NCBI GenBank assembly: GCA_947447355.1
Contig: CANFJF010000009.1
Coordinates: forward strand, 1-64,000
Source of the DNA: Comamonadaceae bacterium
GTDB lineage: Bacteria > Pseudomonadota > Gammaproteobacteria > Burkholderiales > Burkholderiaceae_C
Length of the DNA stretch: 64,000 nucleotides
Direction: 5' to 3'
Positions 37,593 to 54,017 of the stretch are shown here, in pieces; position 1 is the first letter of the stretch, and every line of letters begins with the position of its first letter. The notes under the pieces were generated by a model. That model did not search any database. It saw nothing but the letters and a program-made list of their open reading frames with translations, and was not told the origin of the DNA. The translations under genes and the position numbers were made by a program.

Positions 37593-37680
37593 GAGATTGT
37601 CTTTAGGGTTGCCGGTCATCTGCACACTTTAAAAGGCAGTGTGGGGGGCAGTTAATAAAAATGAAAATTGGAAGCAGAGC

Positions 37681-38652
37681 CTATTGCGGCTCCATCCCCG
37701 AAATTTTGATCTGCTGCTGCCAGACACCGAGTTGGCTCTTCACGAACTGCTGGAACTCCTCAGGCCCGGCCGGCGCTGGCTCGACGCCCATGGATCGTAA
37801 CTTTTCTTGCAGTTCATGCGACCCGAGAATTTTCTGTATTTCTGTGTTGAGCTTGTCGACGATGGCCACGGGCAGGTTGGCAGGCCCGAACAGACCCAGC
37901 CAGGCCGTCACGCCAAAGTCTTTGATGCCGACCGCTTCTGAGATGGTCGGCAAGTTGGGCGCTAAGGTCGTTCGAGTCTGCGGCGTCACCGCCAAGGCAC
38001 GCAGGCGACCCGCCTTGATCAGCGCCTGACTGGTGGCGAAGTCGATGATGCTGAAAGTAACCTGTCCACCAACAACACTGTTCAGGGCTTCTGGCGCAGA
38101 TTTGTACGCCACGCCCACAGCACCCATTTTTGTCGCGTTGCTTAACGCGGCCGCCGGCACTTGGCCGGCACTGCTCGAATACGAATATCCGATCTGCTGC
38201 GGGTTGGCTTTAGCGTAGGTCAACAATTCGGCGATATTGTTGATCGGCAGCTTCCCATCCACGACCAGGAGAAAGGGGAAGTACGAGATACGCGAAATCG
38301 GCGTGAAGTCCTTGATCGGGTCGTAGGACAGCTTTTTAAACAGGTACGGGTTGGCTGAGTGCGTGGTGTTGGTGGTCAGGAACAGCGTGTATCCATCAGC
38401 CGGCGCCCTAGCGACGAATTCAGCGGCGATCTGACCCGCAGCGCCGGGTTTGGACTCAACAATCACCGGCTGACCGACTGCCTTTGACAGGGGCTCGCCA
38501 ATCATCCTGGCGAATATGTCACTGGCCGAGCCCGGTCCGAACGCAATTTGAATCTTGATCGGCTTGCTGGGCCAAGTTTGGGCAAGCACACTGGTGCCCA
38601 GGCACATCAGTGTGACCCATGATGCGGCTAGGCGAATGAGGTATCGGGTCAT
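37681..38652 (-). CDS. Bug-family (TctC-like) periplasmic receptor 4
   Basis: A 323-residue exported receptor starting MTRYLIRLAASWVTLMCLGT with cleavage near SVLAQ. Ligand motifs are IKIQIAFGPGSASDIFARMI and VESKPGAAGQIAAEFVARAP, close to receptor 3 including the FGPGS variant and the TNTTHSANPYLFKKLSYDP segment. An upstream start at 38691 is open but lacks the signal-peptide character. It lies 113 bases from the MaoC-like gene, which may share the promoter at 39747. Confidence 0.87.
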   Translation of the reverse strand: MTRYLIRLAASWVTLMCLGTSVLAQTWPSKPIKIQIAFGPGSASDIFARMIGEPLSKAVGQPVIVESKPGAAGQIAAEFVARAPADGYTLFLTTNTTHSANPYLFKKLSYDPIKDFTPISRISYFPFLLVVDGKLPINNIAELLTYAKANPQQIGYSYSSSAGQVPAAALSNATKMGAVGVAYKSAPEALNSVVGGQVTFSIIDFATSQALIKAGRLRALAVTPQTRTTLAPNLPTISEAVGIKDFGVTAWLGLFGPANLPVAIVDKLNTEIQKILGSHELQEKLRSMGVEPAPAGPEEFQQFVKSQLGVWQQQIKISGMEPQ

Positions 38653-38765
38653 CGGAAGTCTCCTGTGGTTTGAATAAAACTCGTCACACATGGCTATCGG
38701 CTCATCAGCCTTTCCCGACCTTCAGCGGCTGCGACACGGTCCTGACTTCGTCATAAACCTTGTGG

Positions 38766-39641
38766 TTACAGCTCATGACCCACACCCATGGCGCCTTCGA
38801 CCGACACGCTGCCGTGTTCATCATCGGCCCAGACTTGCCACTGTGTCTCACCGGCCAGCGCATTCAGCCCGATTGGACGACCGCAAAAAGACAATCCTTT
38901 GTTTCGCAACTTGATAAAGTCTGGCTCTGTGCCGGACTCTTTTCGATAAAACTCCAGCAGCAGCAGCGTTGTGACAGAGCCATTGACAACCAAGGACGGA
39001 TACGACTCGACCTTGTTCGCGTAAGGCAGGTCGTAGTGAATGCGGTGGGGATTGAACATCACTGCCGAGACGCGGAACAGCAACAATTCGTCCGGCACCA
39101 CGATGCGGCGAATGCTCGGTTCAGGCATGGCAGGAACGGCGGCCGTCGGTGCAGTCTTGCTGGTGTCAGTAGGCTCTTGCGGCACAGCGGCTTCGCGCAT
39201 GACGTAGTCGAGCAGCTCGGTAATGGCCGGCTCCTTGCTCCCGGCCAAAAAAATCTCATGTTGCACAGTCACCAGCGCAAAGCGGCCCGATCGACCCGTC
39301 TTGGGGACGACGGACAGCAGGCGGCTCGCACGGTTCAGGTGCGCGCCGATCGGTATATCCGTGTGAAAGCGAACACGTCGCCCGCCAAACACAATTCGCG
39401 GCAAGCCCAGTTCTGGCAGTTGGATGCCCAAGCCGGCCAACCCATCAGCACGCAGTTGTGACTGCGGTGTGTCGACTGAAAACAAGGCCAAGTGCCAGCC
39501 CCGAGGCATCGCGTCGCCCTCACGCATCCCGCGCACATCTCTGTCGAGGGTCGCGCCCAGACGGCGCACCAGCGGCAGGGCGCAGACATCGTCTGCCTCT
39601 TGGGCCGCGTCAACCGCGCCGTTATCCACTTCCAAATTCAT
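38766..39641 (-). CDS. Hot-dog fold acyl-CoA dehydratase/hydratase (mesaconyl-C4-CoA hydratase/HTD2-like)
   Basis: A 291-residue protein. ATG 39641 is preferred over 39659 because GGAGAC lies before it. The second half has the catalytic hydratase motif FNPHRIHYDLPYANKVESYP followed by SLVVNGSVTTLLLLEF, where the family has xxHRIHYDxxYA...EGYPxLVVHGP. The N-terminal hot-dog (about 40-130) is the non-catalytic half. Members hydrate mesaconyl-C4-CoA or dehydrate 3-hydroxyacyl thioesters. The Val-Glu-Ser-Tyr and Val-Asn-Gly forms differ slightly from the consensus. It is the first gene leftward from a well-formed promoter with an operator. Confidence 0.8.
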   Translation of the reverse strand: MNLEVDNGAVDAAQEADDVCALPLVRRLGATLDRDVRGMREGDAMPRGWHLALFSVDTPQSQLRADGLAGLGIQLPELGLPRIVFGGRRVRFHTDIPIGAHLNRASRLLSVVPKTGRSGRFALVTVQHEIFLAGSKEPAITELLDYVMREAAVPQEPTDTSKTAPTAAVPAMPEPSIRRIVVPDELLLFRVSAVMFNPHRIHYDLPYANKVESYPSLVVNGSVTTLLLLEFYRKESGTEPDFIKLRNKGLSFCGRPIGLNALAGETQWQVWADDEHGSVSVEGAMGVGHEL

Positions 39642-39723
39642 GGCTTTGTCTCCGTCCATCTTGTCTCAGCAGCAAGCTCAAAACACATTGACTGCATTGC
39701 TTAGCGGCTTTGTAATTCCTGAA

Positions 39724-39764
39724 AATGTAATGCTACAATTTTCAAATGTCAATTGTTAGACCAT
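39724..39764 (-). promoter_or_regulatory. Sigma70-like promoter with GntR/FadR-type operator (site 3)
   Basis: Read leftward, TTGACA (39752-39747), a 17-base spacer and TACATT (39729-39724) make a good promoter for the hydratase gene. The operator-like word ATGGTCTAACAAT (39764-39752) abuts the -35 box. It differs at one half-site position from the TGGT-N3-ACCA palindromes beside the GntR gene at 45257. The same operator and -35 arrangement occurs at 50434-50474. It could also act on the rightward kinase gene at 39844. Confidence 0.68.
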
Positions 39765-39843
39765 AGAATTTGATTGAAAGTGATGTTCCGACTGGAGCAA
39801 AAAACATGCAAACTTCACCGACTTTCGGGCAGGGAACAGGGTC

Positions 39844-40875
39844 ATGATCGATGTCCACGGATTCGATGAGCCAAAGTTAGACGCCTACCTGCGACACCAC
39901 CTCGAACCCTACGACGGCCCTTTCGCCATCAGCGTTCTCAGTGGTGGTCAATCCAACCCAACGTATTTACTCAGCGGACGCGAGCGAAAATTTGTCCTGC
40001 GCAAAAAACCTAGCGGTATCTTGCTGCCATCGGCCCATGCAGTTGACCGGGAGTACCGGATCATCGGTGCGCTGCGCGATACAGATGTGCCGGTCGCCAA
40101 AGCTTGGTTGTATTGCGACGATGCGGACGTTATCGGCACGCCGTTTTATGTGATGGATTTTCTGGAAGGCCGGCAATTCATGGACCCGGCGCTGCCAGGA
40201 CTCGAGCCTCAGCAACGGCATGAAATATGGGATGAATTCAACCGTGTCGTCGCGGCCCTGCACCGGCTTGACTATGGGAAGCTCGGGCTGGCTGATTACG
40301 GCAAACCTGGCAACTATCTCGAACGGCAGATCGCGCGTTGGTCGCGTCAATACCGTGCCTCGGAAACAGAACACATCCCCACCATGGAGCGATTGATCGA
40401 GTGGCTGCCACGGAATATTCCGCCAGGTGACGATACATCGATCGTGCATGGCGACCTGCGCATTGATAACCTGATGTTTGACCGACATTCGCACCGCATT
40501 GTGGCTCTGCTGGATTGGGAGTTATCAACACTGGGGCATCCGCTGGCCGACCTGGCTTATCACCTGATGTCATGGCGCCTGACGGCAGAACAATTTCGCG
40601 GCATGGCCGGTCGCGATCTGTCATTGCTCGGGATTCCCGACGAGGCGCAGTATTTACGCAGGTACTGCGAAAGAACCGGCCTTGGCGGGATCGATCCTGC
40701 ACAGTGGGAGTTCTACATGGCGTTCAGCATGTTCAGACTGGCCGCCATCCTGCAGGGCATTGTGAAGCGCGCGCTAGACGGCAATGCCGCCAGCGACGAA
40801 GCATTGTTGACCGGCCGGCGCGCCCGCACCATCGCCGATGTGGCTTGGGCACAAGTCGAAAGACTCGAAGGCTAG
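39844..40875 (+). CDS. APH-family kinase, ACAD10/11 or LvaA type
   Basis: A 343-residue cytoplasmic kinase of the aminoglycoside-phosphotransferase fold. ATP-binding Lys in KFVLRKKPSG (about 51-55), catalytic loop HGDLRIDN (about 202-209) and Mg-binding LLDWELSTLGHPLADLAY (from about 222) are all intact. The closest relatives I recognise are the kinase domains fused to acyl-CoA dehydrogenase in ACAD10/ACAD11 and LvaA of the Pseudomonas levulinate operon, which phosphorylate the 4-hydroxyl of 4-hydroxyacyl-CoA. The ACAD11-type dehydrogenase follows 72 bases downstream, which supports that reading over drug resistance. Confidence 0.82.
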   Translation: MIDVHGFDEPKLDAYLRHHLEPYDGPFAISVLSGGQSNPTYLLSGRERKFVLRKKPSGILLPSAHAVDREYRIIGALRDTDVPVAKAWLYCDDADVIGTPFYVMDFLEGRQFMDPALPGLEPQQRHEIWDEFNRVVAALHRLDYGKLGLADYGKPGNYLERQIARWSRQYRASETEHIPTMERLIEWLPRNIPPGDDTSIVHGDLRIDNLMFDRHSHRIVALLDWELSTLGHPLADLAYHLMSWRLTAEQFRGMAGRDLSLLGIPDEAQYLRRYCERTGLGGIDPAQWEFYMAFSMFRLAAILQGIVKRALDGNAASDEALLTGRRARTIADVAWAQVERLEG

Positions 40876-40947
40876 TTCTCAAGCGAGTTTTACAAGACTT
40901 TTAAATTTCAAAAATCGAACGTCATCGACACCAGAAAGCCAACGACC

Positions 40948-42150
40948 ATGTTTGAGTATTCGCCCAAAGTCCAGGATCTACAGCGTCGCCTGACGGCATT
41001 CATGGATGAGCACATCTATCCCAACGAATCCCTGTTTTATCAACAAGCTGAGGAGCTGGGACCGTGGAAGGTTTATCCCATCATCGAGCAACTCAAGATC
41101 AAAGCCCGCGAGGCAGATCTATGGAACCTCTTTCTGCCGAGTTCAGAGCATGGCGCAGGCCTGACAAATTTTGAATACGCCCCCTTGTGCGAAATCATGG
41201 GCCGCTCCCACCTTGCCCCCGAAGTCTTCAATTGCTCAGCCCCTGACACGGGCAACATGGAAGTGCTCGAGCGTTACGGCACCCAAGAACACCAAGAGCG
41301 TTGGTTAAAACCCCTGCTGTCGGGTGAGATCCGTTCAGCCTTTGCCATGACGGAGCCTGACGTGGCCTCCAGCGACGCGACCAATATTGAGTCTCTGATC
41401 GTTCGTGATGGTGACGACTACATCATCAACGGCCACAAGTGGTACACCACCAACGGGACCGATCCGCGCTGCAAGATCATCATCTTCATGGGCAAGACAG
41501 CACCGGATAACCCAGACCGCCATCACCAGCAATCGATGGTGCTGGTGCCGATGGACACCCCGGGCGTCAAGGTTGTGAGACCGATCTCCGTGCTGGGTTT
41601 TTACGGTGTGCCAGACCGCGCGTCTGAAGTCACCTTTACGAATGTTCGCGTGCCGGTGGCCAACCTCTTGTTGGGCGAAGGTCGTGGCTTTGAAATCGCC
41701 CAAGGCCGGCTTGGCCCCGGGCGTATTCACCACTGCATGCGACTGGTCGGTTTGGCTGAGCGCATGCTGGAGATGATGTGCAAGCGCACCTTGTCGCGCG
41801 TCGCCTTTGGCAAAAAAATCTCGCAGCAGGGCGTGACGATTGAACGCATTGCCGAGGCCCGCATCATGATCGAGCAGACACGGCTACTGACACTCAAAGC
41901 CGCGTACATGATGGACACGGTCGGCAACAAGGTGGCCAAAGCCGAGATCGCCATGATCAAGGTTGCAGCGCCCAAGATGGCCTGCCAAGTGATCGACTGG
42001 GTGATGCAAGCCTTTGGCGGCGGCGGCACCAACAACGATGTTGGCATTGCTGCTGCGTATGCGTCTGCCCGCCTGTTGCGGCTGGCCGATGGTCCTGACG
42101 AAGTGCACCGCCACCAGATCGGCAAGATCGAACTGGCGAAATACCAATAA
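40948..42150 (+). CDS. Acyl-CoA dehydrogenase, ACAD11/LvaC-like
   Basis: A 400-residue flavoprotein of the acyl-CoA dehydrogenase fold. The start [40 protein letters not shown] and ETG-like [18 protein letters not shown] are characteristic of the ACAD10/11 clade, as are [15 protein letters not shown] and the C-terminal [20 protein letters not shown] with ADGPDEVH. In the levulinate route the equivalent enzyme removes phosphate from 4-phosphoacyl-CoA to give an enoyl-CoA; in other contexts it may be a plain dehydrogenase. The kinase gene precedes it and the acyl-CoA synthetase begins 17 bases after its stop. Confidence 0.85.
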
Positions 42151-42167
42151 GTCAATCGGAGGTCAAG

Positions 42168-43757
42168 ATGCAGATTCGCAAGGAATGTCATTGGGACCGG
42201 GTGATGGCCTGCTACGCTGATCGCCCGCTGAATGTCAACGACATGCTGGCAAAAAGCTGGGCGTCAGCCGCCGACAAGTTAGCTGTGGTGGACGGTTCGG
42301 TGCGCATGAACTACCGTGAACTTGAGCACGCTGTCGCAACGCTCGCAGCGGCTCTGGCTGCGCGCAGCGTCACTTTTGGCGACCGCGTTGCCGTGATGCT
42401 GCCCAACCAGCTGGAGGCCGTCTTGAGCGTGCTGGCGATTGCGCGTTTAGGCGCGGTACTCGTCCCTCTGGGCACCCGATTAAAAGAACCAGAGATCAGC
42501 TACATCTTTGGCGATGCACAACCCGTAGCCGTCATTTATGCGCCTGACTATGCCGCAGAGATGCCGACAACCGGTCCAACCACTGCCATGCGTTTCGAAT
42601 GTGGCAGCGCTGCCTGGCAAGACATGATGCAACCCGGCCCGCAAACGTCGGCGCCACCCGCAGAGGTGAATGAGCATGATGCCTTTGGCATTATTTACAC
42701 GTCAGGCACGACCGGCAAACCCAAAGGCGCGGTGCTGACCCACCTGAACGTTGTGCATTCCTGCTTGCACTGGGAAGACGCGCACCAACTGACCCGCGAT
42801 GAACGCACGCTGGTGTGTGTGCCTTGGTCGCACGTGGCCGGACTGTGCGGCGTTGTCTTGCCCTTTCTCGCCATCGGTGGATCGCTGATTTTGATGCGCG
42901 AGTTCAAACGCCGTGATTTCCTTGAACTGGCACAAAAAGAGCGCATCACACACGCGCTGATGGTGCCTGCCATGTACGGTCTTTGTCTGCTTGAGCCGGA
43001 CCTCGACACCTTCAATCTGATCGACTGGCGAATTGGCGCCTATGGCAGTGCGCCCATGCCCGAGCCGACGATTCAGCGCTTTGCACAGGCCTTTCCGGCG
43101 CTTCAAATGTGCAACTGCTACGGTGCCACCGAAACAACATCACCCGCCACCATGATGCCGCGTGGCGATGGCGTGGCGCATGCCGAAAGCATCGGCAAGA
43201 CGGTGCCCTGCGGGGATATTTTGGTGATGGACGAACAGGGCTGCGAAGTCGCCGCTGGCGAGGAAGGCGAACTCTGGATTGCTGGCCCGATGGTGGTCCC
43301 CGGTTACTGGAAAAACGAACAAGCCAATGCAATTTCATTCGCTGGGGGCTATTGGAAATCAGGTGACATCGGCGCTATCGATGCGGCCGGATATGTGCGA
43401 ATTGCCGACCGTAAAAAAGACATGGTGAACCGCGGCGGCTTCAAGGTCTACCCCGCCGAAGTTGAAAGCGTGTTGGCGGGCATCGAAGGCGTGATCGAGG
43501 CGGCTGTCATCGGGCAGCCCGACGACATGCTGGGTGAGTGTGTGGTCGCCTTTCTGAATGTGTCGACAAACCTTGATCCCGAGATGGTGCGCAGCTACTG
43601 CGCCCAACGGATGGCCGATTACAAGGTGCCCGGTCGCGTGGTCATCCGTAAAACGCCCCTGCCACGCAATGCCAATGGGAAAATCCAGAAGGCTGATCTG
43701 CGCGAAGCCGCCAAGCTTTTACCACCCTTGATTCGTTCCCCAAAGGCCGCCCTATGA
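42168..43757 (+). CDS. AMP-forming acyl-CoA synthetase
   Basis: A 529-residue ligase. GGAGGTCAAG directly precedes ATG 42168 and fixes the start. The phosphate loop is IIYTSGTTGKPKGAVLTHLN, the adenine region NCYGATETTSP, the hinge GYVRIADRKKDMVNRGGFKVY and the C-terminal catalytic Lys in NANGKIQKADLREA. The layout fits medium-chain or short-chain hydroxy acids but does not define the substrate. It overlaps the TLP1 paralogue by four bases. With the kinase and dehydrogenase it makes the core activation module. Confidence 0.88.
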   Translation: MQIRKECHWDRVMACYADRPLNVNDMLAKSWASAADKLAVVDGSVRMNYRELEHAVATLAAALAARSVTFGDRVAVMLPNQLEAVLSVLAIARLGAVLVPLGTRLKEPEISYIFGDAQPVAVIYAPDYAAEMPTTGPTTAMRFECGSAAWQDMMQPGPQTSAPPAEVNEHDAFGIIYTSGTTGKPKGAVLTHLNVVHSCLHWEDAHQLTRDERTLVCVPWSHVAGLCGVVLPFLAIGGSLILMREFKRRDFLELAQKERITHALMVPAMYGLCLLEPDLDTFNLIDWRIGAYGSAPMPEPTIQRFAQAFPALQMCNCYGATETTSPATMMPRGDGVAHAESIGKTVPCGDILVMDEQGCEVAAGEEGELWIAGPMVVPGYWKNEQANAISFAGGYWKSGDIGAIDAAGYVRIADRKKDMVNRGGFKVYPAEVESVLAGIEGVIEAAVIGQPDDMLGECVVAFLNVSTNLDPEMVRSYCAQRMADYKVPGRVVIRKTPLPRNANGKIQKADLREAAKLLPPLIRSPKAAL

Positions 43758-45229
43758 AGTCGATTCCTGGCAACACCCCTGTCTTGGTGGGCTTCGGCAC
43801 CGCCACGCGGCGCGAAGAAGATTTCATGCGGGCGCTGGAACCGATGGACCTGATGCTGGAGGCCGTCGCTGCCGCCGGTGCCGACAGCGGATCACGTGCA
43901 GCACTTGCGGGGCTGCAATACATCGCGGTGCCCAAAGGACGCTGGTCGTACCGAAATCCTGCCGGCGAAATTGCCCGAAAATTCGGCGCGCACAGTGCGA
44001 CCACAGTTCTCGCTACAACCGGCGTTTTGCAGCAGACCCTGATCGGCGAGGCCTGCTTGCGGATTGCTCGCGGTGAAGTGCATACAGCCTTGGTCACAGG
44101 CGCCGACGCAGGTTACCGGTTGCTGCGCGCGCAAATTGCCGGGCAGAAAGCCAGTGAACGCGAACAATCCGACGAGCCTGACAATTACCTCAAGCCGAAG
44201 GACGAATTGCGGCACCCAGTGGAACTTCGGGCGGGCCTGCAAATGCCGGTGGGCCTTTACGCCATTCTTGAAAGTGCCTACCGCGCCAAAAAGGGTTGGA
44301 GCGTGGATGCGCATCGCGACCATCTTGCGGGTTTATGGAGACGCTTCAGCGGCATTGCGTCGAACAATCCGCACGCCTGGAATCAAGAGGCCGTGGCCTC
44401 TGAAGACATCCGCAACGCATCGGCGCGCAACCCGATGCAAGCGTTTCCCTACACGCGCTATCACTGCTCAACATGGAATGTCGACCAAGCCTCGGCCTTG
44501 CTGCTGTGCTCTGCATCCCGCGCCGAGTCGCTGGGTGTGCCACGCTCGCAATGGATTTTTCCAATGGCCAGCACGGAGTCCAATCACATGGTGGCGGTGT
44601 CTGCACGCGAAGACCTTGCGACGTGTCATGGCGCACGGGTCACCGGCTTAGCTGCGCTCAAAGCGAGTGGCTTGTCCATCGCCGACATCGACCTGATCGA
44701 CTTTTACAGCTGCTTTCCTATCGCTGTCGAAACGTATGCGGAGGCGATCGGTTTATCACTGGATCGCGACTTGACGCTGACCGGCGGCATGGCATTCGCA
44801 GGTGGGCCTTACAACAATTATTTCTTGCAGTCGACTTGCCGCGCCATTGAATTATTGCGACAAGGCAATGGACGCAACGCGCTGCTGTCATGTGTCTCAG
44901 GCGTGGTCACCAAGCAGGCCTTTGCGCTGTGGTCGGTGGATCCCCCGCCAAAGGGTTTTGTCCATGCCGACCTCACGCAACAGGTAGCTGACGAGACGCG
45001 CGCCATCGAAGTGTTGGAAGACTTCACCGGCGAGGCGTGCGTTGCCGGCTACACCGTGCTCCATGGACGCGGCCAAGTTCCCAAAGGGGTGGCGTTGCTC
45101 GATACCGCGGAAGGCCAACGTGCCATGGTGACCTGTGAAGACGATGCCCTCGTCGCGGTCATGCAAGAAACTGAATTGGTTGGCCGGCAGGTCCGCGTTG
45201 AGGCGAATCGATTGCTCGCCATTTTGTAA
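43754..45229 (+). CDS. Thiolase-like protein of TLP1 type, paralogue B
   Basis: A 491-residue paralogue of the protein at 29109, recognisable along the whole length (VLVGFGTATRREEDFMRALE, EPMDLMLEAVAAAGADS, NPMQAFPYTRYHCSTWNVDQ). It has the same C-terminal add-on domain (CVAGYTVLHGRGQVPKGVAL). The nucleophile position again lacks Cys (ATTGVLQQTLIGEACLRIAR), and GHP is replaced by GGMAFAGGPYNNY. Both copies thus share the same loss, so it is a family property rather than damage. The stop lies 28 bases from the convergent GntR gene. Confidence 0.83.
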   Translation: MKSIPGNTPVLVGFGTATRREEDFMRALEPMDLMLEAVAAAGADSGSRAALAGLQYIAVPKGRWSYRNPAGEIARKFGAHSATTVLATTGVLQQTLIGEACLRIARGEVHTALVTGADAGYRLLRAQIAGQKASEREQSDEPDNYLKPKDELRHPVELRAGLQMPVGLYAILESAYRAKKGWSVDAHRDHLAGLWRRFSGIASNNPHAWNQEAVASEDIRNASARNPMQAFPYTRYHCSTWNVDQASALLLCSASRAESLGVPRSQWIFPMASTESNHMVAVSAREDLATCHGARVTGLAALKASGLSIADIDLIDFYSCFPIAVETYAEAIGLSLDRDLTLTGGMAFAGGPYNNYFLQSTCRAIELLRQGNGRNALLSCVSGVVTKQAFALWSVDPPPKGFVHADLTQQVADETRAIEVLEDFTGEACVAGYTVLHGRGQVPKGVALLDTAEGQRAMVTCEDDALVAVMQETELVGRQVRVEANRLLAIL

Positions 45230-45256
45230 CCGCTGATGCAACCTTAGCGCTTCCCC

Positions 45257-46045
45257 CTAGGCCATGTCCCGACCGCTCGCTTTGGCGGCCGCTTCAAGAT
45301 GGGTCGCATAGGCTTGGACATCCCGTTCCGCGCGCCGCCGAGCCGCATCAGCATCCTGCGCTTCAATCGCCTCGAGAATGCGCCGATGCGCCTGGCTCAC
45401 CAGCGTCCGAACATCGGGCGATGCAAAATTCTCAATACGCGATGCCTCCAGCATGAGTCCCGATATGGATCCCGTGAACGCGCGCAGCAAGTCGTTGTGG
45501 CTCGCCACGGCGATGGCCGAATGCCAGTTGGCATTTTCCTCAAGAAAGCGCGGCACATCGCTCAAGGCGGCCTCGTCCAGACGGGCGGAAATCAATTTCA
45601 ACGCTTTGATGTCTTCGTCAGTCCGGTTGTGAGCCGCCAGATACGCGACCATCGGTTCGAGCGCTTGACGGGCTTCGACCAAAGAGCTGAGCGACACGCT
45701 GCGACCCTTGGCAAACAGATTGATGTGGCTGGCGAGCAGCGCATCGGTGGGCCGTGAGACGACCGATCCGCCATAGCGGCCAGCCTTGGTTTCCACCAGC
45801 CCCTGGGCTTCCAAAATGCGCAGTGCCTCACGCACCGAACCCCGGCTCAAGCCTGTCCCCGCGACCATCTCGCGCTCCGTCGGCAATGACGAACCGGGCG
45901 GATAGGCACCGCTCAATATTTGCTTTTGCAGGCGATCTGCCAAAACGTCACATGATTTCGGCACCTTGATGGTCCCAATGTCATCCAGCATGGCGGGTTC
46001 GTGGGCTGGCGCTTCGTCGATAGTCGGAGGGGTCATGTTGAGCAT
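45257..46045 (-). CDS. GntR-family (FadR subfamily, FCD) transcriptional regulator
   Basis: A 262-residue regulator. After a 25-residue leader the winged helix reads VLADRLQKQILSGAYPPGSS, LPTEREMVAGTGLSRGSVRE and ALRILEAQGLVETKAGRYGG, typical of FadR-type GntR proteins, which bind TGGT-N3-ACCA. The FCD domain keeps His in ENANWHSAIAVASHNDLL and LVSQAHRRILEAI. Two such palindromes lie in its own upstream interval and two near-matches lie at 39752 and 50434. It probably represses this catabolic region until an acid or acyl-CoA binds. Confidence 0.88.
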   Translation of the reverse strand: MLNMTPPTIDEAPAHEPAMLDDIGTIKVPKSCDVLADRLQKQILSGAYPPGSSLPTEREMVAGTGLSRGSVREALRILEAQGLVETKAGRYGGSVVSRPTDALLASHINLFAKGRSVSLSSLVEARQALEPMVAYLAAHNRTDEDIKALKLISARLDEAALSDVPRFLEENANWHSAIAVASHNDLLRAFTGSISGLMLEASRIENFASPDVRTLVSQAHRRILEAIEAQDADAARRRAERDVQAYATHLEAAAKASGRDMA

Positions 46046-46071
46046 CTCATTATTTTAGTCGGCCTCGTACA

Positions 46072-46084
46072 TTGGTTAGACCAA
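46072..46084. promoter_or_regulatory. GntR/FadR-type operator (site 1), perfect palindrome
   Basis: TTGGTTAGACCAA has perfect five-base arms (TTGGT/ACCAA) and a three-base centre, the shape bound by FadR-type GntR proteins. It lies 27 bases before the GntR start, upstream of a TAAAAT that could be that gene's -10 box, so autoregulation is likely. Confidence 0.72.
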
Positions 46085-46154
46085 AAGAAATTTGACTGTT
46101 ATCCCCCTACGATAAGGCGTCGAAGCGCTTCTGTATTTCGGGTTTACCCTCTTT

Positions 46155-46172
46155 ATGGTCTGACCATTGATT
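46155..46172 (+). promoter_or_regulatory. GntR/FadR-type operator (site 2) abutting a -35-like box
   Basis: ATGGTCTGACCAT (46155-46167) is a perfect palindrome and is directly followed by TTGATT (46167-46172), which would be the -35 box of the rightward enoyl-CoA hydratase operon. The arrangement equals that of sites 3 and 4, but no good -10 box stands 17 bases further on (TGCATT at 46190). Confidence 0.65.
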
Positions 46173-46226
46173 GGGATGATATTTGCCATTGCATTGGATA
46201 TACCAAGCTAGTAAGGAAACTCACAG

Positions 46227-47093
46227 ATGGATCTGAAGGTCACGGATTACTCAGTAGACGGTAACGGTGTCGCTGTCGTACGCCTGAACCGCCCTGGGCG
46301 GGGCAATTCGTGGAGCGCACGCATGAATGCGGAATACCGGTGGGTCATGCTGCAGATGGACGAAGACCCAAACGTTCGCGTCATCTTGGTCACGGGTGCT
46401 GGCAAGCAGTTCTGTGTCGGTGCTGATTTCAAGGCGCTCAACCACTATGCAGACACGAACGCGGACTACGTCAGCAGTCTGCAGGCTGAAGAAATGGCCA
46501 TGCCGGGGTACGGCGTGCGACCCGAGTACGACCATGACATTATTTGGCAATGGGGCCTCAAGAAGCCTGTCATTTGCGCCATCAACGGGTCCTGTGCCGG
46601 CATGGGCGTTGCCATTGCGGGCTTCAGCGATTTCCGTTATGCCGTGGCCGGCTGCAAGATCACGACCGCTGCCGCCAAGGTCGCCTTGCCCGCTGAATAC
46701 GGCATGAGCTGGCTGCTGCCCAAGATCATCGGCTTGACTCAGGCGACGGACTGGCTGATCACCAGCCGCATCGTGCTGGCCGAAGAAGCTCAACGGGTGG
46801 GCTTCCTGAACGATGTCTTCGCGCCTGAAGAGTTCCATGCACGCGTCGCCGAGATCGCAAGGACGATGAGCCTAGCGCTGTCGCCGATGGCCGCAGCCAT
46901 CACCAAGCGACAGATTTATGCCGACCTGATGAGCGACGATGCTGGCGCTGCCGTCGAAGAGTCAAAGCGTCTCATCGGCGTGCTGATGAAGACGCCCGAT
47001 TTCAAAGAAGGATCGCGTGCCCTCCAAGAGCGCAGGCCGCCTCGCTTTGAAGCTCTCACGGCCGGGGTCCTTATCCCGCAACCTGAGCGCTGA
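46227..47093 (+). CDS. Enoyl-CoA hydratase/isomerase family protein
   Basis: A 288-residue crotonase-fold protein. AAGGAAA stands before the ATG. Motifs: VVRLNRPGRGNSWSARMNAE, oxyanion loops FCVGADFKAL and AINGSCAGMGVAIAGFSDFR, and KVALPAEYGMSWLLPKIIG with a conserved acidic residue. It opens an operon with Bug receptor 5, a TIGR03084 protein and a CoA-transferase, divergent from the FadR-type regulator. The probable job is hydration of an enoyl-CoA from the imported acid. Confidence 0.86.
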   Translation: MDLKVTDYSVDGNGVAVVRLNRPGRGNSWSARMNAEYRWVMLQMDEDPNVRVILVTGAGKQFCVGADFKALNHYADTNADYVSSLQAEEMAMPGYGVRPEYDHDIIWQWGLKKPVICAINGSCAGMGVAIAGFSDFRYAVAGCKITTAAAKVALPAEYGMSWLLPKIIGLTQATDWLITSRIVLAEEAQRVGFLNDVFAPEEFHARVAEIARTMSLALSPMAAAITKRQIYADLMSDDAGAAVEESKRLIGVLMKTPDFKEGSRALQERRPPRFEALTAGVLIPQPER

Positions 47094-47170
47094 ACAGTCC
47101 AATGTCTGCCGTTTTCAACCAGCGGCGCATGGCCCATTTTTCTTTTTCTCGATTTGTATTGGAATTTTTC

Positions 47171-48139
47171 ATGCTGATCATCCGTCTCAAAAGGGCCCTC
47201 ACGGTCCTCATCTTCGTCGCCTGCGGCAGCGCTTTCGCGCAAGCCTGGCCGGCCAAACCAGTGCGCATCATCGTGCCGGTCGGTGCGGGATCGTTCGGTG
47301 ACATCCTCGCGCGCTTGGTGGCTGAGGAATTGCAAACCGTCTTCAAGCAGTCGTTTGTGGTGGAGAACAAGGCCGGCGCTTCAGGTATTCTCGCGGCCGA
47401 TTTTGTGGCGAAGTCGCCGGCCGACGGCTACACGCTGTTGATCATGACCAACTCCGCGCATTCAGCCAACCCGCATCTGTTCAAGAAGCTGCCATATGAA
47501 CCTGTCAAGGACTTCACGCCGATCGCGCGCATTTGCTACGTACCATTCGCCCTCATGGTCGGCGCTGACTCGCCGATTCGCAGTCTGGAAGATCTCGTGG
47601 CGCGCGGTAAGGCAGCGCCCGGCAAGCTGAACTACGGCTACGCGAACACAACGTCGCAGGTAGCCGCTGCCGCATTGAACACGCTGACCGGCATGCAAGG
47701 TGTCGCCGTCGCTTACAAGACGTCGCCACAGGCACTGTTGGAGGTTGTCAGTGGCCGGGTTGACTTTCTGTTTAACGATGCAGGGTCGAGCGCCGCGCTG
47801 CTGAAGGCGGGACGCTTGCGGCCCCTCGCCGTGACCTCGGCAAAACGCAGCGCATTATTTCCGGCGTTGCCGACCGTTGAAGAGGGCGCGCGGCTGGCTG
47901 GCTTTTCCGTGGCGGCTTGGGCTGGCCTTGGCGCACCCGCTGGTTTGCCGAACGACATCACCTTGAAATTGAGCAATGCTGTTCTTGACTTGGTGAAGCG
48001 TCCTGCATTCAACGAAAAACTCATGGCCATGGGATCGGAAGCGGCGCCAGCTGCCCCTGCCGAGTTCGGCACCTACGTTGCGCAACAGATGGACGTCTGG
48101 GGGCAAAAGGTGAAGGAAGCGGGCATTGAGAAAGAATGA
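47171..48139 (+). CDS. Bug-family (TctC-like) periplasmic receptor 5
   Basis: A 322-residue exported receptor. ATG 47171 (MLIIRLKRALTVLIFVACGS, cleavage near SAFAQ) is preferred to an open start at 47102. Ligand motifs are VRIIVPVGAGSFGDILARLV and VENKAGASGILAADFVAKSP. The first loop reads VGAGSFGD where others have FAAGG or FGPGS, so ligand preference may differ. Its stop overlaps the TIGR03084 start by four bases. Confidence 0.88.
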   Translation: MLIIRLKRALTVLIFVACGSAFAQAWPAKPVRIIVPVGAGSFGDILARLVAEELQTVFKQSFVVENKAGASGILAADFVAKSPADGYTLLIMTNSAHSANPHLFKKLPYEPVKDFTPIARICYVPFALMVGADSPIRSLEDLVARGKAAPGKLNYGYANTTSQVAAAALNTLTGMQGVAVAYKTSPQALLEVVSGRVDFLFNDAGSSAALLKAGRLRPLAVTSAKRSALFPALPTVEEGARLAGFSVAAWAGLGAPAGLPNDITLKLSNAVLDLVKRPAFNEKLMAMGSEAAPAAPAEFGTYVAQQMDVWGQKVKEAGIEKE

Positions 48140-48978
48140 GCACGATCAACGTGACGGATTTCCACCAGCCGCAGTCCTTCCTCGACGAATCAGAAGCTTT
48201 GTTCGACGTCCTGGCGGGTGTGGATGCATCATTGTTCACACGACCTACGCGCTTCAAGGAGTGGGCGATCAACGACATCTTGGCGCATCTCCACATCTGG
48301 AACTGGGCGCTGGAACAAGCCATCGTCGATGTGCCGGCCTTCGACAACTTGCTGTTGCAATTCAAGGCGCACGTGAAAGTCGCACCGGTGCGTACATTCG
48401 AGAATACTTGGGTTGCGCCCTTGCACGGCCCAGAGCTTCTCGACGCATGGTGGGCTCAGTGCCGTCAAACCACGGCCTTGGTGCAGTCCGTAGACCCCAA
48501 GCTGCGCACCCGTTGGTTCGGGCCCGACATGAGCGCGCGCTCAAATATCACCGCACGGCTCATGGAGACCTGGGCGCACGGCCAGGCGATCCACGACTTG
48601 CTTGGGCTGGAGCGCGTGCAGACCGATCGCCTCAAGGACATCGCGGTGCTGGGCATCCATACGTTTGACTGGACCTTCCGTGTGCGCAAGCTGCAGCCAC
48701 CAGCGGTGCACCCGCATGTGCGCTTGCGTGCGCCTTCTGGGGCAACTTGGTCTTGGAACGAAGCCAGCGACACAGACCTCATCGAAGGCAATGCCGCTGA
48801 GTTTTGTCAGGTCGTCACGCAGGTGCGTCACGTCGACGATACCCAGCTGCACGTTGTCGGCGAAGCCGCGCGACTTTGGATGGCGTCAGCCCAGTGTTTT
48901 GCGGGTCCGGCACATACGCCGCCTGCAGCCGGCACTCGGTTTCGCGAGCCCACCTTTCCTGCTTTCATTAGCACCTGA
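48136..48978 (+). CDS. TIGR03084-family DinB-like metal-binding protein
   Basis: A 280-residue cytoplasmic protein with a DinB/mycothiol-isomerase-like four-helix N-terminal domain. RFKEWAINDILAHLHIWNWA carries one conserved His, and ARLMETWAHGQAIHDLLGLE carries the other His pair, so a metal site is likely. The C-terminal part (APSGATWSWNEASDTDLIEG, AEFCQVVTQVRHVDDTQLHV, AQCFAG) is typical of TIGR03084. The function of this family is not established. Coupling to the Bug gene and closeness to a CoA-transferase suggest a step on the same acid. Confidence 0.8.
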   Translation: MSTINVTDFHQPQSFLDESEALFDVLAGVDASLFTRPTRFKEWAINDILAHLHIWNWALEQAIVDVPAFDNLLLQFKAHVKVAPVRTFENTWVAPLHGPELLDAWWAQCRQTTALVQSVDPKLRTRWFGPDMSARSNITARLMETWAHGQAIHDLLGLERVQTDRLKDIAVLGIHTFDWTFRVRKLQPPAVHPHVRLRAPSGATWSWNEASDTDLIEGNAAEFCQVVTQVRHVDDTQLHVVGEAARLWMASAQCFAGPAHTPPAAGTRFREPTFPAFIST

Positions 48979-48999
48979 TTCTTCCTTTATGGCCACCCG

Positions 49000-50229
49000 A
49001 TGGCTCACCATCACATGTCTACCGAAACTAAGCCTCTCCTGCCGCTCTCCGGCACCCGCATCCTCGACTTGACCGCCGTTCTTCTCGGCCCCTACGCCAC
49101 CCAGATGCTGGCGGACTACGGCGCCGAAGTCATCAAGATTGAGCCCCCCACTGGCGACACCACGCGTTACATCGGACCAACCAAGGAAAAGGGCATGGCA
49201 GCGATTTTTCTGGGTCTTAACCGCAACAAGCGCAGCGTGGTCCTCGACTTGAAGCAGTCCGCCGCACGTGATGCACTGCTGCAACTGGTCGACGGTGCCG
49301 ATGTGCTGATCCACAGCATGCGACCGCAAAAGATGGCGGCGCTCGGTCTGTCGCCACAAACCCTGCGTGAACGCAATCCCCGGCTGGTCGTGGTCGCGGC
49401 TTACGGTTTCGCAGAAGGAGGACCCTATTCGGGCCGCCCCGCGTACGACGACATCATCCAGGCCACGTGCGGCATAGCCGGCCTCTTTGAGCAGGTCCAA
49501 GGCAGACCGGCCTACGTCCCGACGGTGCTTGCCGACAAGACCTCGGGCCTCTTTGCTGCTCAGGCCATCTTGATGGCACTGCTGGCACGTGAGCGTGATG
49601 GCGTTGGCAGCGAAGTCGAAGTGCCGATGTTCGAAACCATGGTCGGGTTCATGCTGTCCGATCATCACTATGGCGCGCAGTTTGAGCCGCCGCTAAGCCC
49701 TCCGGGTTACGTGCGCTTATTGTCTAAGTACCGCCGTCCGTTCAAGACTCTGGACGGCTACATCGCTTTGATGCCCTACACCGACGCCAACTGGCGCATG
49801 TTCTTCACCGAGATTGGCAAGGTTGAACTGGTGGCGGACAAGCGCTTCATTGGCGTGGCGGCACGGACGGAAAATATTGAGGCGCTTTACGACATTTTGG
49901 AGACAGCGGTTGCCACGCGAAGCACCGCTGATTGGCTACAGGCCTCCGAACGTCTCGACATCCCGGCGGCGCGTATCAACAAGTTGGACGAGTTGGAGTC
50001 GGATCCACATCTGGTGGCGACGGGCTTCTTCAAGACGATGCATGACGAGAAGATAGGCAAGCTGCGTCGCCCCGGTGCATCGCTGCGCTTCAAGGGGATG
50101 GAGCCTGCGGCCGAATTCCCTCCACGGCTAGGGCAGCACACGGCAGAGGTGTTAAGTGAGTTCGGACTTGCAGCTGAGGAGGTCGAAGCCTTGATCGCTG
50201 GTGGTGCCGCGGTGCAGTGGAAGGGTTGA
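49000..50229 (+). CDS. Family III CoA-transferase (CaiB/BaiF)
   Basis: A 409-residue CoA-transferase; ATG 49015 is an alternative start. The N-terminal signature is TRILDLTAVLLGPYATQMLADYGAEVIKIEPPTGD. The catalytic Asp is kept at about residue 179 in TVLADKTSGLFAAQAILMAL. It ends the four-gene operon that begins with the enoyl-CoA hydratase. With the receptor it suggests import of an acid followed by CoA transfer. Confidence 0.87.
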   Translation: MAHHHMSTETKPLLPLSGTRILDLTAVLLGPYATQMLADYGAEVIKIEPPTGDTTRYIGPTKEKGMAAIFLGLNRNKRSVVLDLKQSAARDALLQLVDGADVLIHSMRPQKMAALGLSPQTLRERNPRLVVVAAYGFAEGGPYSGRPAYDDIIQATCGIAGLFEQVQGRPAYVPTVLADKTSGLFAAQAILMALLARERDGVGSEVEVPMFETMVGFMLSDHHYGAQFEPPLSPPGYVRLLSKYRRPFKTLDGYIALMPYTDANWRMFFTEIGKVELVADKRFIGVAARTENIEALYDILETAVATRSTADWLQASERLDIPAARINKLDELESDPHLVATGFFKTMHDEKIGKLRRPGASLRFKGMEPAAEFPPRLGQHTAEVLSEFGLAAEEVEALIAGGAAVQWKG

Positions 50230-50544
50230 CGATTCCCGCAACCAAAGACAAATCCGTGTGTACGGTCTTCATCTTTGGCCGTTCAAATAAGACGTAGCGT
50301 TCCGGCGAGTCACCCGCGAGGAGATGAATAGCTGTTTTAGACAGCCGTTCTTCATTCATTTGGAACGAGACTGCTGTTGTGCATGCTCGCACTGGCTTTC
50401 AAGATTCTTCGCATTTATACACCCCAGAATCTTATGGTCAAACAATTGACTGAAACAAATAATTTACTTATTATTAAAGCTGGAATTTAGATCTGACGGC
50501 GTCGAAGAACGCTGAAACTTCTCAACTTAAACAGGAGACAAACT
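50230..50544. other. Intergenic stretch, 315 bases, holding the promoter of Bug receptor 6
   Basis: The left part (50230-50400) has no recognisable gene or clear terminator. The right part is AT-rich and contains the operator and sigma70 promoter at 50434-50474 and the ribosome site AGGAGA at 50533-50538. Confidence 0.6.
50434..50474 (+). promoter_or_regulatory. Sigma70 promoter with GntR/FadR-type operator (site 4)
   Basis: TTGACT (50446-50451), a 17-base spacer and TATTAT (50469-50474) form a near-consensus promoter, giving a leader of about 65 bases. ATGGTCAAACAAT (50434-50446) abuts the -35 box. The joined word ATGGTCAAACAATTGACT matches site 3 (39764 leftward to 39747) at 16 of 18 positions, including the position against -35. 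Binding here would block RNA polymerase. Confidence 0.75.
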
Positions 50545-51552
50545 GTGAAAAATAACCTCTCGCGACCGACAAGCTTTCCATTTGTCCGGCGTCTTGCCGC
50601 TACCTTGCTGATGTCCCTCGGCACCTGCTTACTGGCCGCACCGGCGCAAGCTCAGAGCGCTTACCCCAACAAACCCATTCGAATGATTGTGTCGGTAGGC
50701 GCTGGCGGCGCTACCGATTCAATCGCGCGCCGTCTGGCGGATCGCCTGTCCAAGTCGATGGGCGTTGCCGTTTTCGTTGAGAACCAACCTGCGGGAAGCG
50801 GTGTCATCGCCGCGCAAGCGGTGGCGCGCGCCGCGCCGGATGGCTACACGATCCTGATCGGAACGAACACCACGCACGCAGGCAACGCCAGCTTTCTCAA
50901 AAACATGCCTTACGACCCGATCAATGATTTCGAGCCGATCACTCGGCTTGGCATCGCGGCGCTGGTCCTCAGCATCAACAGCGACGTGCCCGTCAAAACC
51001 GTGCCGGAGTTTGTCGCTTACGGCAAGGCGAATCCCGGCAAGATGGCTTTTGGGGCGGGCACCGGCTCTGCCCGGTTGGCTTCAGAAATGCTGAAAGCCA
51101 AGACCGGCATCGACATCCTCAGCGTGCCTTACAAATCCAACGTGCAGGCATTGACAGACTTACGCGGCGGGCAAATTCAAATCTTGATGGGCGACATTGC
51201 CTTGATGCTGCCGCAAATTCGTTCTGGTGCGGTCAAGGGTCTGGCCGTGTCGAGCGCCAAGCGGTCTGCAGCCATGCCTGAAACACCGACCCTGCAAGAG
51301 GCTGGGGTACCGGGTTATGAATTGGTCGGTTTTATCGCTGCTTTTGCACCGGCAAAAACACCGGAGCCGATCGTGCGCAAACTGAACGAAGAAATGGGCA
51401 AAATTTTGCGTGAGAAAGAATTTGCAGCATCACTCGCAGCCGCAGGTGTCGACGCGGCGCCCAACACGCCGGCAGAATTGCGCGAGTGGGTCGTCTCCGA
51501 AACCAAAAAGTGGAACGACTTGGCCCGCGCTGCAGGCATACAGCCGGAATAA
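50545..51552 (+). CDS. Bug-family (TctC-like) periplasmic receptor 6
   Basis: A 335-residue exported receptor with a GTG start fixed by AGGAGA six bases upstream. The signal peptide runs MKNNLSRPTSFPFVRRLAAT to APAQAQ. Ligand motifs are IRMIVSVGAGGATDSIARRL and VENQPAGSGVIAAQAVARAA, in which the usual RPGA turn reads QPAGS. It has its own promoter with operator site 4 and precedes the fused CoA-transferase gene by 61 bases. Confidence 0.88.
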   Translation: MKNNLSRPTSFPFVRRLAATLLMSLGTCLLAAPAQAQSAYPNKPIRMIVSVGAGGATDSIARRLADRLSKSMGVAVFVENQPAGSGVIAAQAVARAAPDGYTILIGTNTTHAGNASFLKNMPYDPINDFEPITRLGIAALVLSINSDVPVKTVPEFVAYGKANPGKMAFGAGTGSARLASEMLKAKTGIDILSVPYKSNVQALTDLRGGQIQILMGDIALMLPQIRSGAVKGLAVSSAKRSAAMPETPTLQEAGVPGYELVGFIAAFAPAKTPEPIVRKLNEEMGKILREKEFAASLAAAGVDAAPNTPAELREWVVSETKKWNDLARAAGIQPE

Positions 51553-51613
51553 TCAGCAGAAAAATGACGCATTAACCCGCATATACCTCGATTGAAAAAT
51601 AGACAGTAGTTTC

Positions 51614-54001
51614 ATGAGTCATTCAGCAGAAAATAGCGTCGGCGTTCGCGTCATTGAATGTGCAGGCAGCAGCATTGCCGCCGCGTATGCGGGTTGGTCG
51701 ATGGCAAGAATGGGCGCGCTAGTCACGCGACTGGCGTCCTCAACGCCAGCCAGCGACACAGCACCTGCGGACGCGACAGATCCCATTGGCATGGCGCTGG
51801 AAGTCTTGCGTGAAGGCAAGTCCAGCGCAGCACGCCCAAACGATGCGGTATCGATCGACAAGCTTCTGGCCGATGTCGACATCCTGATCGCCGACAACCG
51901 CGAGGCGCTTGAAGCTTGGGCCGGTCCTCTGGATCAATTAACGCAGCGACTTCCCCGTTTGGTCATCGGTATCGCCAGCGTCTTTGGCCTTGACGGTCCC
52001 TATGCCGGTTATGCCGGCACAAGCCTTGACGCCCAAGCGATCAGCGGCGTGGCTTGGTCGCTGGGTGAGGCCTCGCGAGAACCGCTGACTTTTCCGCCGG
52101 GCGTCATCGAACACCAAGCCGGAGCGATGCTGGCCGCTGGTTGCTTGCTTGGCCTGACGGTGCGCGAGAATTCGGGCCGAGGTCGGGTTGTCGACATCTC
52201 GCTGGCCGAGATCATGGCGACCTACGTTGCCGGCAATTGCCGCCTCTACATTCACCACAACTTGCAGTGGCATCGCAGTGGTCGCCGAGCCTCGGGTTCC
52301 GGTGGTGCGTACCCCTACGTCATCCTGCCTTGCAAGGACGGGCAGGTCTGCATTTGCGGCCGGACACGCGAAGAGTGGATGCGTTTTGTACAGGCGATGG
52401 GCAGTCCGGCTTGGGCGGCTGAACCGCGCTATCAAGAACTTCGAGCCATGGGGACGCAATACCCGGACGAAGTGGACGCGCTGGTGATGCCGTGGCTCGC
52501 CGAAAAAACCATGGCGGAACTGGAAGCTATTGCGCTCAAGAACAACCTGATCGTCTCGCCGCTGCGAAGCTTCGACGAGGTGTTGAACACGCGCCATTTC
52601 AAAGACCGCGGCTTCCTGCGTGAAAGCCATGTCGCAGATCAACCTGTGCTGGTTCCCTCAATGCCATTCAAGGCACTTGAATCGCGCACTGGGAAAGCGC
52701 CAGATAAAGCATCTGTTTTGCTGTCGTGCAGAACGACTCCGATTGGCGATGCCTCAACACCAGCAACAAACATTGCAAAGCCACTGGCGGGCATGCGCGT
52801 TCTCGATTTCGGCTGGGTCTGGTCGGCGCCTTGGGTCGGCACCATTCTTGGTGAACTGGGCGCGCAGGTCATCAAGGTGGAGCACGCACTGCGGCCAGAC
52901 AACCTGCGCCTTTCGGGTCGTGTTTTTCGGGACGGCCAGCAAGTGCCGGGGCCGTCGAAAGAAATGTCGCCGATGTTTCACCAGATCAACCACGGCAAGC
53001 TGGGCATCACGCTCAATGCGAAGGAACCGCGCGCTGTAGAGCTACTCAAACAACTCGCCGCCACCAGCGATCTGGTGGTTGAAAACATGTCGCCAGGCTC
53101 GATGGAGCGCGTGCATCTGGGTTACGACGTTTTGCGCGCCGTCAACCCGAAGCTGGTGATGTTGGCCATGTCGGCCGCAGGCCAGTTCGGCGAATTGGCC
53201 ACTATGCGGGCTTATGCGCCGACCATGTCGGGTTTTGTCGGCCTCGAAAGTTTGATCGGCTATCCCGGGGAGCCCGCCATTGGCGCGCTGAATTTTGGCT
53301 TCGGCGACCCGAACGCATCGACGCACGGACTGATGGCCGTCATGGCCGCACTTTGGCGAGCGCGCGCCACCGGGCTTGGTTGTTATATCGACCTCTCGCA
53401 AATCGAATCCTTGCTGGGCACCTTGCGTCCTTATTTACTGGACACGCAAGTCAACCACCGTCAGACCCCCGTCATGGGCAATCGGCATCCCGGCATGGCA
53501 CCGCACGGCATCTACCCTGCGGCAGGAACTGACCAATGGTTGACGCTGGCGGTGACGACCGACGCGCAGTGGCAGGCTTTGACCGCCCATGCCGTCGGGC
53601 AGGTTTGGACTGTAGATGTGCGTTTTAAATCTAATGCAGGTCGACTTGCCCATGTAGCCGAGCTGGATGCCGTCATTGCCGTATGGACGAGGAGTAAGCC
53701 ACGCGATGTGTTGGTCGCCCAATTGCGCGCAGATGGCATCGCCTCGTCGCCCGTCTTGTCGGTTCAAGAGCTATGGGCTGATCCTCATTTCACCGCACGT
53801 CACATCAAGAGCAAGGTCGAGATTCCGGTCTATGGCCAAGAGCAACTGTTCCGGGCACCTTGGAAATTCTCTGATTTCGAACCCCGCATCGACAACCCCG
53901 GCCCTTTGACCGGGCAGCACAACGACTATGTTTTCGGTGAACTTCTGGGCCTTGACGCCGATGAGATCGCACGACTCAAAGAAAGCGGCGTGATTGCTTG
54001 A
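51614..54001 (+). CDS. Tandem-fused family III CoA-transferase (two CaiB/BaiF domains)
   Basis: A 795-residue protein made of two CoA-transferase units joined near residue 385. The first unit is diverged: at the catalytic position it has Glu (about 166) in GVIEHQAGAMLAAGCLLGL. The second unit is canonical, starting MRVLDFGWVWSAPWVGTILG with ELGAQVIKVEHALRP, and keeps the Asp at about 565 in FGFGDPNASTHGLMAVMAAL. Family III enzymes are interlocked dimers, so a fusion with one active and one altered site could act as a built-in heterodimer. It lies between Bug receptor 6 and the double hot-dog dehydratase. Confidence 0.87.
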   Translation: MSHSAENSVGVRVIECAGSSIAAAYAGWSMARMGALVTRLASSTPASDTAPADATDPIGMALEVLREGKSSAARPNDAVSIDKLLADVDILIADNREALEAWAGPLDQLTQRLPRLVIGIASVFGLDGPYAGYAGTSLDAQAISGVAWSLGEASREPLTFPPGVIEHQAGAMLAAGCLLGLTVRENSGRGRVVDISLAEIMATYVAGNCRLYIHHNLQWHRSGRRASGSGGAYPYVILPCKDGQVCICGRTREEWMRFVQAMGSPAWAAEPRYQELRAMGTQYPDEVDALVMPWLAEKTMAELEAIALKNNLIVSPLRSFDEVLNTRHFKDRGFLRESHVADQPVLVPSMPFKALESRTGKAPDKASVLLSCRTTPIGDASTPATNIAKPLAGMRVLDFGWVWSAPWVGTILGELGAQVIKVEHALRPDNLRLSGRVFRDGQQVPGPSKEMSPMFHQINHGKLGITLNAKEPRAVELLKQLAATSDLVVENMSPGSMERVHLGYDVLRAVNPKLVMLAMSAAGQFGELATMRAYAPTMSGFVGLESLIGYPGEPAIGALNFGFGDPNASTHGLMAVMAALWRARATGLGCYIDLSQIESLLGTLRPYLLDTQVNHRQTPVMGNRHPGMAPHGIYPAAGTDQWLTLAVTTDAQWQALTAHAVGQVWTVDVRFKSNAGRLAHVAELDAVIAVWTRSKPRDVLVAQLRADGIASSPVLSVQELWADPHFTARHIKSKVEIPVYGQEQLFRAPWKFSDFEPRIDNPGPLTGQHNDYVFGELLGLDADEIARLKESGVIA

Positions 54002-54017
54002 GCATCGCCAAAAAAGA

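Follow-up and report, generated by a model that had tools for sequence, protein, structure and literature searches.

Transcription factors of the FadR subfamily, within the GntR family, bind operators of the consensus TKGT/ACMA, in which three bases separate GT from AC, and where they serve divergent genes a single site usually lies centrally and controls both sides (PMC4494728). The FCD repressor AlkR recognizes ATTGTCAGACAAT, from which acyl-coenzyme A (acyl-CoA) releases it (PMC12042122). On the catabolic side, ACAD11 converts 4-hydroxyacyl-CoA into 2-enoyl-CoA, and a similar pathway, lva, occurs in Pseudomonas putida (PMC12440821). The subject of this report is a 64,000-nucleotide stretch of DNA (the window) from a Comamonadaceae bacterium (GenBank assembly GCA_947447355.1, contig CANFJF010000009.1, positions 1 to 64,000), in which a gene for a GntR regulator with an FCD domain, here called gntR, lies among operons of a CoA-thioester catabolic cluster. 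We consider it probable, on the evidence of sequence, that the gntR product is an autoregulated repressor that uses four related 13-base words as operators for this cluster. Searches of the open-access literature for this regulon, for lva genes accompanied by a GntR gene and for the operator type turned up no paper on the regulon; it is new, its proposed mechanism of regulation is textbook, and four related bacteria show the pattern too. For a poorly described cluster, the analysis supplies a regulator, an operator and a list of genes that can be put to the test.

Operator words and promoter geometry

A preliminary description of this DNA had placed four words of the TGGT-N3-ACCA type around gntR, and all four lie where it put them (operators 1 to 4; Table 1). 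Each fits TKGT-N3-ACMA, and in operators 2 and 3, which it called perfect palindromes, the five-base arms are fully complementary. The joined words ATGGTC(T/A)AACAATTGAC(A/T), read leftward from 39764 and rightward from 50434, are equal at 16 of 18 positions, as had been described, and both are followed by a 17-base spacer and a -10-like box (TACATT and TATTAT, respectively). The operator had also been said to be locked to the -35 box at two sites; those two stand but the count does not, the lock being found at three of the four sites, operator 3 included (ATGGTCTGACCAT-TGATT-N17-TGCATT, with a weak -10 box). At all three locked promoters the operator shares one base, its last, with the -35 box, and its centre falls at about -41 if the -10 box is set at -12 to -7 in standard numbering. 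At operator 2, read leftward, the lock position lacks a good -35 box. Sigma-70-type matches in 39600-50600 number seven, against 3.7 in shuffled sequence, and the promoters at operators 1 and 4 are the best of them (10/12).

The divergent spacer between the kinase and hydratase operons is 184 bases long as called, with its midpoint at 39751.5, and operator 1 is centred on 39758, only 6.5 bases off. Because this near-central position is that of sites in FadR-subfamily divergons (PMC4494728), operator 1 may control the rightward kinase-ACAD operon as well. In the spacer between gntR and the enoyl-CoA hydratase gene each operator is closer to its own gene, like the 'separate sites' arrangement of the same class of divergons (PMC4494728). 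The two palindromes there are centred at 46078 and 46161, 83 bases or about eight helical turns apart, and looping or cooperation between them is possible.

Chance expectation and distribution in the genome

Intergenic status was assigned by a simple gene caller (length, and GC3 over GC2, that is, G+C content at third over second codon positions), not from an annotation, and by this measure 4254 of the 64,000 window bases are intergenic. The published core TKGTNNNACMA has seven matches in the window against 3.7 expected, with 9 of 100 shuffles reaching seven, and a loose one-mismatch word, TGGTNNNACCA, was rejected as support, with 24 window matches against 21.9 expected. A loose core so near expectation is what would be seen if AT-rich promoter DNA had come to resemble a GntR word by chance, but the fuller words speak otherwise. 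In the window WTKGTNNNACMAW (WTKGT-N3-ACMAW) matches four times, at precisely the four operators, all of them intergenic; a Markov model of intergenic DNA predicts 0.098 such matches and none of 500 simulations reached four, and three of the four words are locked to TTGA, an arrangement that none of 2000 simulations produced even once. The whole-genome scan that the preliminary description had proposed confines the exact joined word ATGGTCWAACAATTGAC to the promoters at operators 1 and 4 in a genome of 3.95 Mb. With this uniqueness, the simulations and, in the relatives discussed below, an invariant operator at the hydratase promoter and co-occurrence with the regulator all standing against it, chance can be regarded as a very improbable explanation.

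The word WTGGTNNNACMAW occurs genome-wide at 40 distinct places (60 match rows over both strands, against 17 rows for the reversed-pattern control). Its clustering in the window, which makes up 1.6% of the genome, has a P of about 8e-6 when intergenic places are considered (four of nine) and of about 0.004 over all places (4 of 40). Of the 36 places beyond the window, genes contain 31 or 32, and a clear enlargement of the regulon by these matches was therefore rejected; four, one of them at a contig edge, are intergenic and a fifth (C86:8370) immediately precedes a probable start, so that a further member may yet be found among these four or five, whose neighbours were read by their first residues. 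The next-best composites in the genome carry two mismatches and are inside genes (C18:50902 and C43:9086), and when up to three are allowed the genome has 24 matches, whereas the reversed pattern has 9.

Conservation in related bacteria

Close orthologues of the regulator are rare; they are present in four metagenome-assembled genomes (MAGs), one of Polaromonas (L028, 85% identity), two of Comamonadaceae (L029 and L030, 81%) and one of Rhodoferax (L031, 80%). In a second collection, a set of 101 relatives yielded orthologues in G038 and G058, and a set of 399 family genomes, in which at most six candidates were scored per genome, yielded one in G305; these three appear to be the same as L029, L030 and L031, and L028 lies in G496. 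When the hydratase promoters of the window, L028, L029 and L030 are aligned, 10 of the 13 operator positions are invariant, in the pattern ATGGTnnnACAAT with the central three varying, as are 6/6 columns of the -35 box, 13/17 of the spacer, 5/6 of the -10 box and 42/149 of the rest, in what are effectively three independent sequences, L029/G038 and L030/G058 being near-identical here. At the gntR promoter the word occupies equal alignment columns in five genomes (window TTGGTCTAACCAA, L028 ATGGTCAGACAAA, L031 ATGGTCTAACAAT), and in Rhodoferax it comes with a full TTGACT-N17-TACATT. The start of the Bug/fused-CoA-transferase operon in G038 and G058 carries ATGGTTAGACAAT-TGCAT-N17-TATCAT, which matches the promoter at 50434, the sites orthologous to operator 4 being L118 19683-19695 (G038) and L119 17953-17965 (G058). 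A motif that failed to persist upstream of orthologues would have told against the preliminary description; the operator is instead kept at the hydratase promoter in three other genomes, at the Bug/fused-CoA-transferase promoter in two and at gntR in four, degenerate in two of these.

The strict composite ATGGTNNNACAATTGAC occurs in all five genomes with an orthologous regulator (80-100% identity), at seven places, two in the window and five in relatives, all intergenic by the simple caller, and in one of the 98 relatives that lack an orthologue (G029), many of these comparison genomes being incomplete. The composite word was derived from the window's own genome; with that genome left out, the comparison becomes 4/4, two of the four being near-identical here, against 1/98 (P about 1e-6). 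Occurrence at random frequency, which the preliminary description had named as a refuting outcome, was not what was seen. The looser WTGGTNNNACMATTGAC is found in all three orthologue genomes (five places) and once each in 7 of the 98 others, where five matches are inside genes, a sixth lies over a questionable gene start and the last is intergenic; because the reversed control hits 6 of 101 genomes, once each, these seven are at background.

Likeness may extend beyond the operator. Spacers were compared over 54 between-class pairs of promoters, of which those with at least eight matches were reported, and the best pair of the 54, the Bug/CoA-transferase promoter of G038 and the Rhodoferax gntR promoter, is identical at 12 of 17 positions (1/4000 shuffles, uncorrected), a hint of a copied promoter module. 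It is conceivable, at somewhat less than an even chance, that a cassette of about 40 bases (operator, -35, spacer and -10) was copied before the hydratase, Bug/CoA-transferase and gntR operons and spread in Comamonadaceae with the regulator, in which case duplication of promoters, instead of separate evolution of each operator, enlarged the regulon. The preliminary description had held that common descent or common control was needed; both may apply. Operator and -35 box kept as a unit at non-orthologous promoters are in any event useful for understanding how regulons grow. The same likeness of spacers, together with the 21 FCD matches in the genome, gntR product included, would also suit a word that was simply inherited from a duplicated promoter and now serves a different FCD regulator or none at all, with gntR incidental. 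This we judge improbable, since the composite tracks the orthologous regulator and sits at the gntR promoter, the invariance has the form of a dimer site maintained by selection, and the other FCD/GntR gene of the window (about 15579-16322) has no such 13-base word (WTKGTNNNACMAW) nearby.

The regulator

The gntR product scores 57.8 bits against Pfam PF00392 (cut-off 27) and 83.3 bits against PF07729 (cut-off 24.3). It is under all listed NCBIfam cut-offs (FadR 38.7 of 249.2 bits, PdhR 99 of 330, NanR 104.5 of 260), and an identity as the orthologue of E. coli FadR, PdhR or NanR was rejected as being far below those models. Its true start may be Met19 (45991), which is invariant in five orthologues. 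In a helix-turn-helix (HTH) register taken from the alignment to FadR chain 1hw1 (query 38 to chain 15, assumed ungapped through the HTH), Arg58, Ser70 and Gly89, invariant in five orthologues, occupy HTH positions 28, 40 and 59. Arg, Ser and Gly at these positions have been associated with a G/C pair at positions 6/14 of the site (PMC4494728), which in our reading is the second base of TKGT, that is, TGGT. Structure prediction from five close sequences reached a mean predicted local distance difference test score (pLDDT) of 51.6, too poor for a check of the ligand. In an alignment to 2DI3, whose FCD metal ligands we take to be Asp-His-His-His, the Asp becomes Asn171 and one His becomes Ala201, with His175 and His220 kept, so that the protein, as judged from these presumed ligand residues, may lean away from a metal-bound carboxylate ligand.

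Regulators of a sister clade, at 43-47% identity (L141, L142, L143 and L144 in G013, G007, G015 and G045, and L058 in G022), adjoin genes that by eye are hydantoinase-like, with a TGGTCAGACCA palindrome in the spacer, and in G013, G022, G007 and G045 there are two neighbouring regulator matches. In L030, ATGGTAAGACCAT lies at 9085-9097, about 100 bases before a seemingly broken gene for a family III CoA-transferase (9197-10000, by eye) that neighbours gntR; L029 has a similar remnant without that word.

Genes of the cluster

The features of the window that concern the putative regulon are collected in Table 1.

Table 1. Operator words, promoters and genes of the putative regulon (window positions)
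Feature	Position	Strand	Sequence or remark
Operator 1	39752-39764	-	ATGGTCTAACAAT; final T doubles as the opening T of the -35 box in the leftward hydratase promoter
Operator 2	46072-46084		TTGGTTAGACCAA; minus-strand reading TTGGTCTAACCAA; covers the -35 region of the gntR promoter
Operator 3	46155-46167	+	ATGGTCTGACCAT; locked to TTGATT of the enoyl-CoA-hydratase-operon promoter
Operator 4	50434-50446	+	ATGGTCAAACAAT; locked to TTGACT
Leftward promoter, hydratase operon	39724..39752	-	TTGACA-N17-TACATT; 10/12 consensus match
Candidate rightward kinase promoter	39741..39769	+	TTCAAA-N17-TAGAAT; overlaps operator 1; weak, presumed from a 9/12 consensus match only
Promoter-like element, 46227-50229 operon	46167..46195	+	TTGATT-N17-TGCATT; weak -10; outside the sigma-70-type match list
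Promoter, Bug/fused-CoA-transferase operon	50446..50474	+	TTGACT-N17-TATTAT; 10/12 consensus match
gntR	45257..46045	-	GntR HTH and FCD, FadR subfamily; putative autoregulated repressor
FAS1-dehydratase-like hydratase, first gene of leftward operon	38766..39659	-	PF13452 21.8 bits, just under cut-off 22
Rest of leftward operon: Bug (TctC) protein, SDR, acyl-CoA ligase, enoyl-CoA hydratase	34160..38691	-	
APH-type kinase, ACAD11-like acyl-CoA dehydrogenase, acyl-CoA ligase, thiolase-like protein	39844..45229	+	
Enoyl-CoA hydratase, Bug protein, TIGR03084 protein, family III CoA-transferase	46227..50229	+	
Bug protein, fused double family III CoA-transferase (795 aa), FAS1-dehydratase-like hydratase	50545..55205	+	

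The first gene of the leftward operon presumably encodes a FAS1-dehydratase-like hydratase of the MaoC type. By strand and spacing the leftward genes are predicted to form one operon, after which comes a CoA-transferase gene (32949-34259). The kinase (residues 3-334) and the dehydrogenase (residues 2-397) match the two halves of ACAD11 (8v3v/8v3u; E 4.6e-78 and 1.4e-133, respectively), and their best single matches are the uncharacterised proteins 3dxp and 4hr3. Together they are probably a split ACAD11, and because of this the pathway is probably of the 4-hydroxyacyl type; judged by its gene content the cluster looks like a set that takes up a hydroxylated acid, activates it with CoA and breaks it down. 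It includes several Bug binding proteins, the fused CoA-transferase and the putative split ACAD11. Close orthologues (74%) of the fused CoA-transferase (51614-54001) are confined to G038 and G058 among 100 other genomes.

Repression or activation

From the observed positions, geometry, conservation and co-occurrence with the regulator we infer binding, an effector, and repression over activation. A dimer of the gntR product would recognize TGGT-N3-AC(C/A)A and, by lying over the -35 box, keep sigma-70 polymerase off three promoters, those of the hydratase, the enoyl-CoA-hydratase and the Bug/fused-CoA-transferase operons; from the equivalent position the regulator would repress its own gene. 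An intermediate of the pathway, a CoA thioester that is probably of the 4-hydroxyacyl type, would release the regulator, and all operons would open together. The preliminary description had joined these operons into one response, a proposal that conservation and co-occurrence with the regulator support, with the kinase-ACAD operon as a presumed member.

The same regulon could be run with the opposite sign, by class II activation, the ligand then releasing an activator. At three promoters the operator centre falls close to -41, where class II activators sit, and its distance from the -35 box is rigid. Promoters that depend on an activator tend to have poor -35 boxes, however, whereas TTGACA and TTGACT, and the whole promoters around them, are near consensus at two of the promoters, which makes repression the likelier; gntR itself has an operator in the equivalent place, as suits autorepression, and catabolic gene sets are normally induced. 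E. coli FadR is a dual regulator that activates fabA and fabB (PMC4537474), and this, like the position near -41, counts in favour of activation; repression is nevertheless the likelier sign, and activation seems to us unlikely.

Beyond the activator-like position and the dual role of FadR, other points weigh against an autoregulated repressor acting at the four words. Any of the 21 FCD proteins could in principle use TKGT-N3-ACMA, and in L029 and L030 the gntR promoter carries the degenerate form GTGATCATACAAG. Orthologous gene clusters are inherited together, and co-occurrence is for that reason not independent proof of binding. The first gene of the 46227 operon has no relative at E 1e-60 in the 100 other genomes, and operator 3 stands outside the conservation comparison. 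Non-strict sites in three relatives overlap open reading frames (ORFs) of the simple caller, namely a start extension of gntR at the L028 site, a 176-aa antisense ORF at the gntR site of L030 and, at the L118 site, a 111-aa ORF that is absent from L119; we read the last two as spurious. Finally, a composite near a Bug-cupin pair in G038 and G058 points away from those genes. This composite (L093 1747-1763 in G038:C3, exact; L140 1981-1997 in G058:C8:54981, one mismatch) is about 170 bases from the pair (cupin by eye), which is on the other strand, and its -35 box faces some 400-500 bases without a convincing gene.

Comparison with known systems

The putative repressor and its words have a parallel in the FadR-subfamily class (PdhR, LldR, GlcC and others), with which they share the HTH and FCD domains, a palindromic TKGT-N3-ACMA operator, and sites in divergent spacers beside the regulator gene (PMC4494728); here, by contrast, the targets are a CoA-thioester catabolic cluster, and the cut-offs of the named models are far off. 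E. coli FadR at fabA and fabB likewise combines a GntR-family protein, an operator at the promoter and an acyl-CoA ligand, but it activates those genes (PMC4537474), and the gntR product reaches just the FadR model score given above. As to the genes, the lva operon and ACAD10-ACAD11 resemble the cluster in their ACAD11-half genes with an acyl-CoA ligase and an SDR nearby, whereas the window adds Bug proteins, CoA-transferases and a GntR gene, the comparison with LvaA and LvaC being one of gene content (PMC12440821). The nearest working model is AlkR, likened by description and not by sequence: ATTGTCAGACAAT has the same ACAAT half and its catabolism is linked to lipids and CoA, an acyl-CoA ligand being presumed for the regulator described here, but the AlkR site covers -10 boxes instead of the -35 box, and AlkR controls alkB2 and further alkane genes (PMC12042122).

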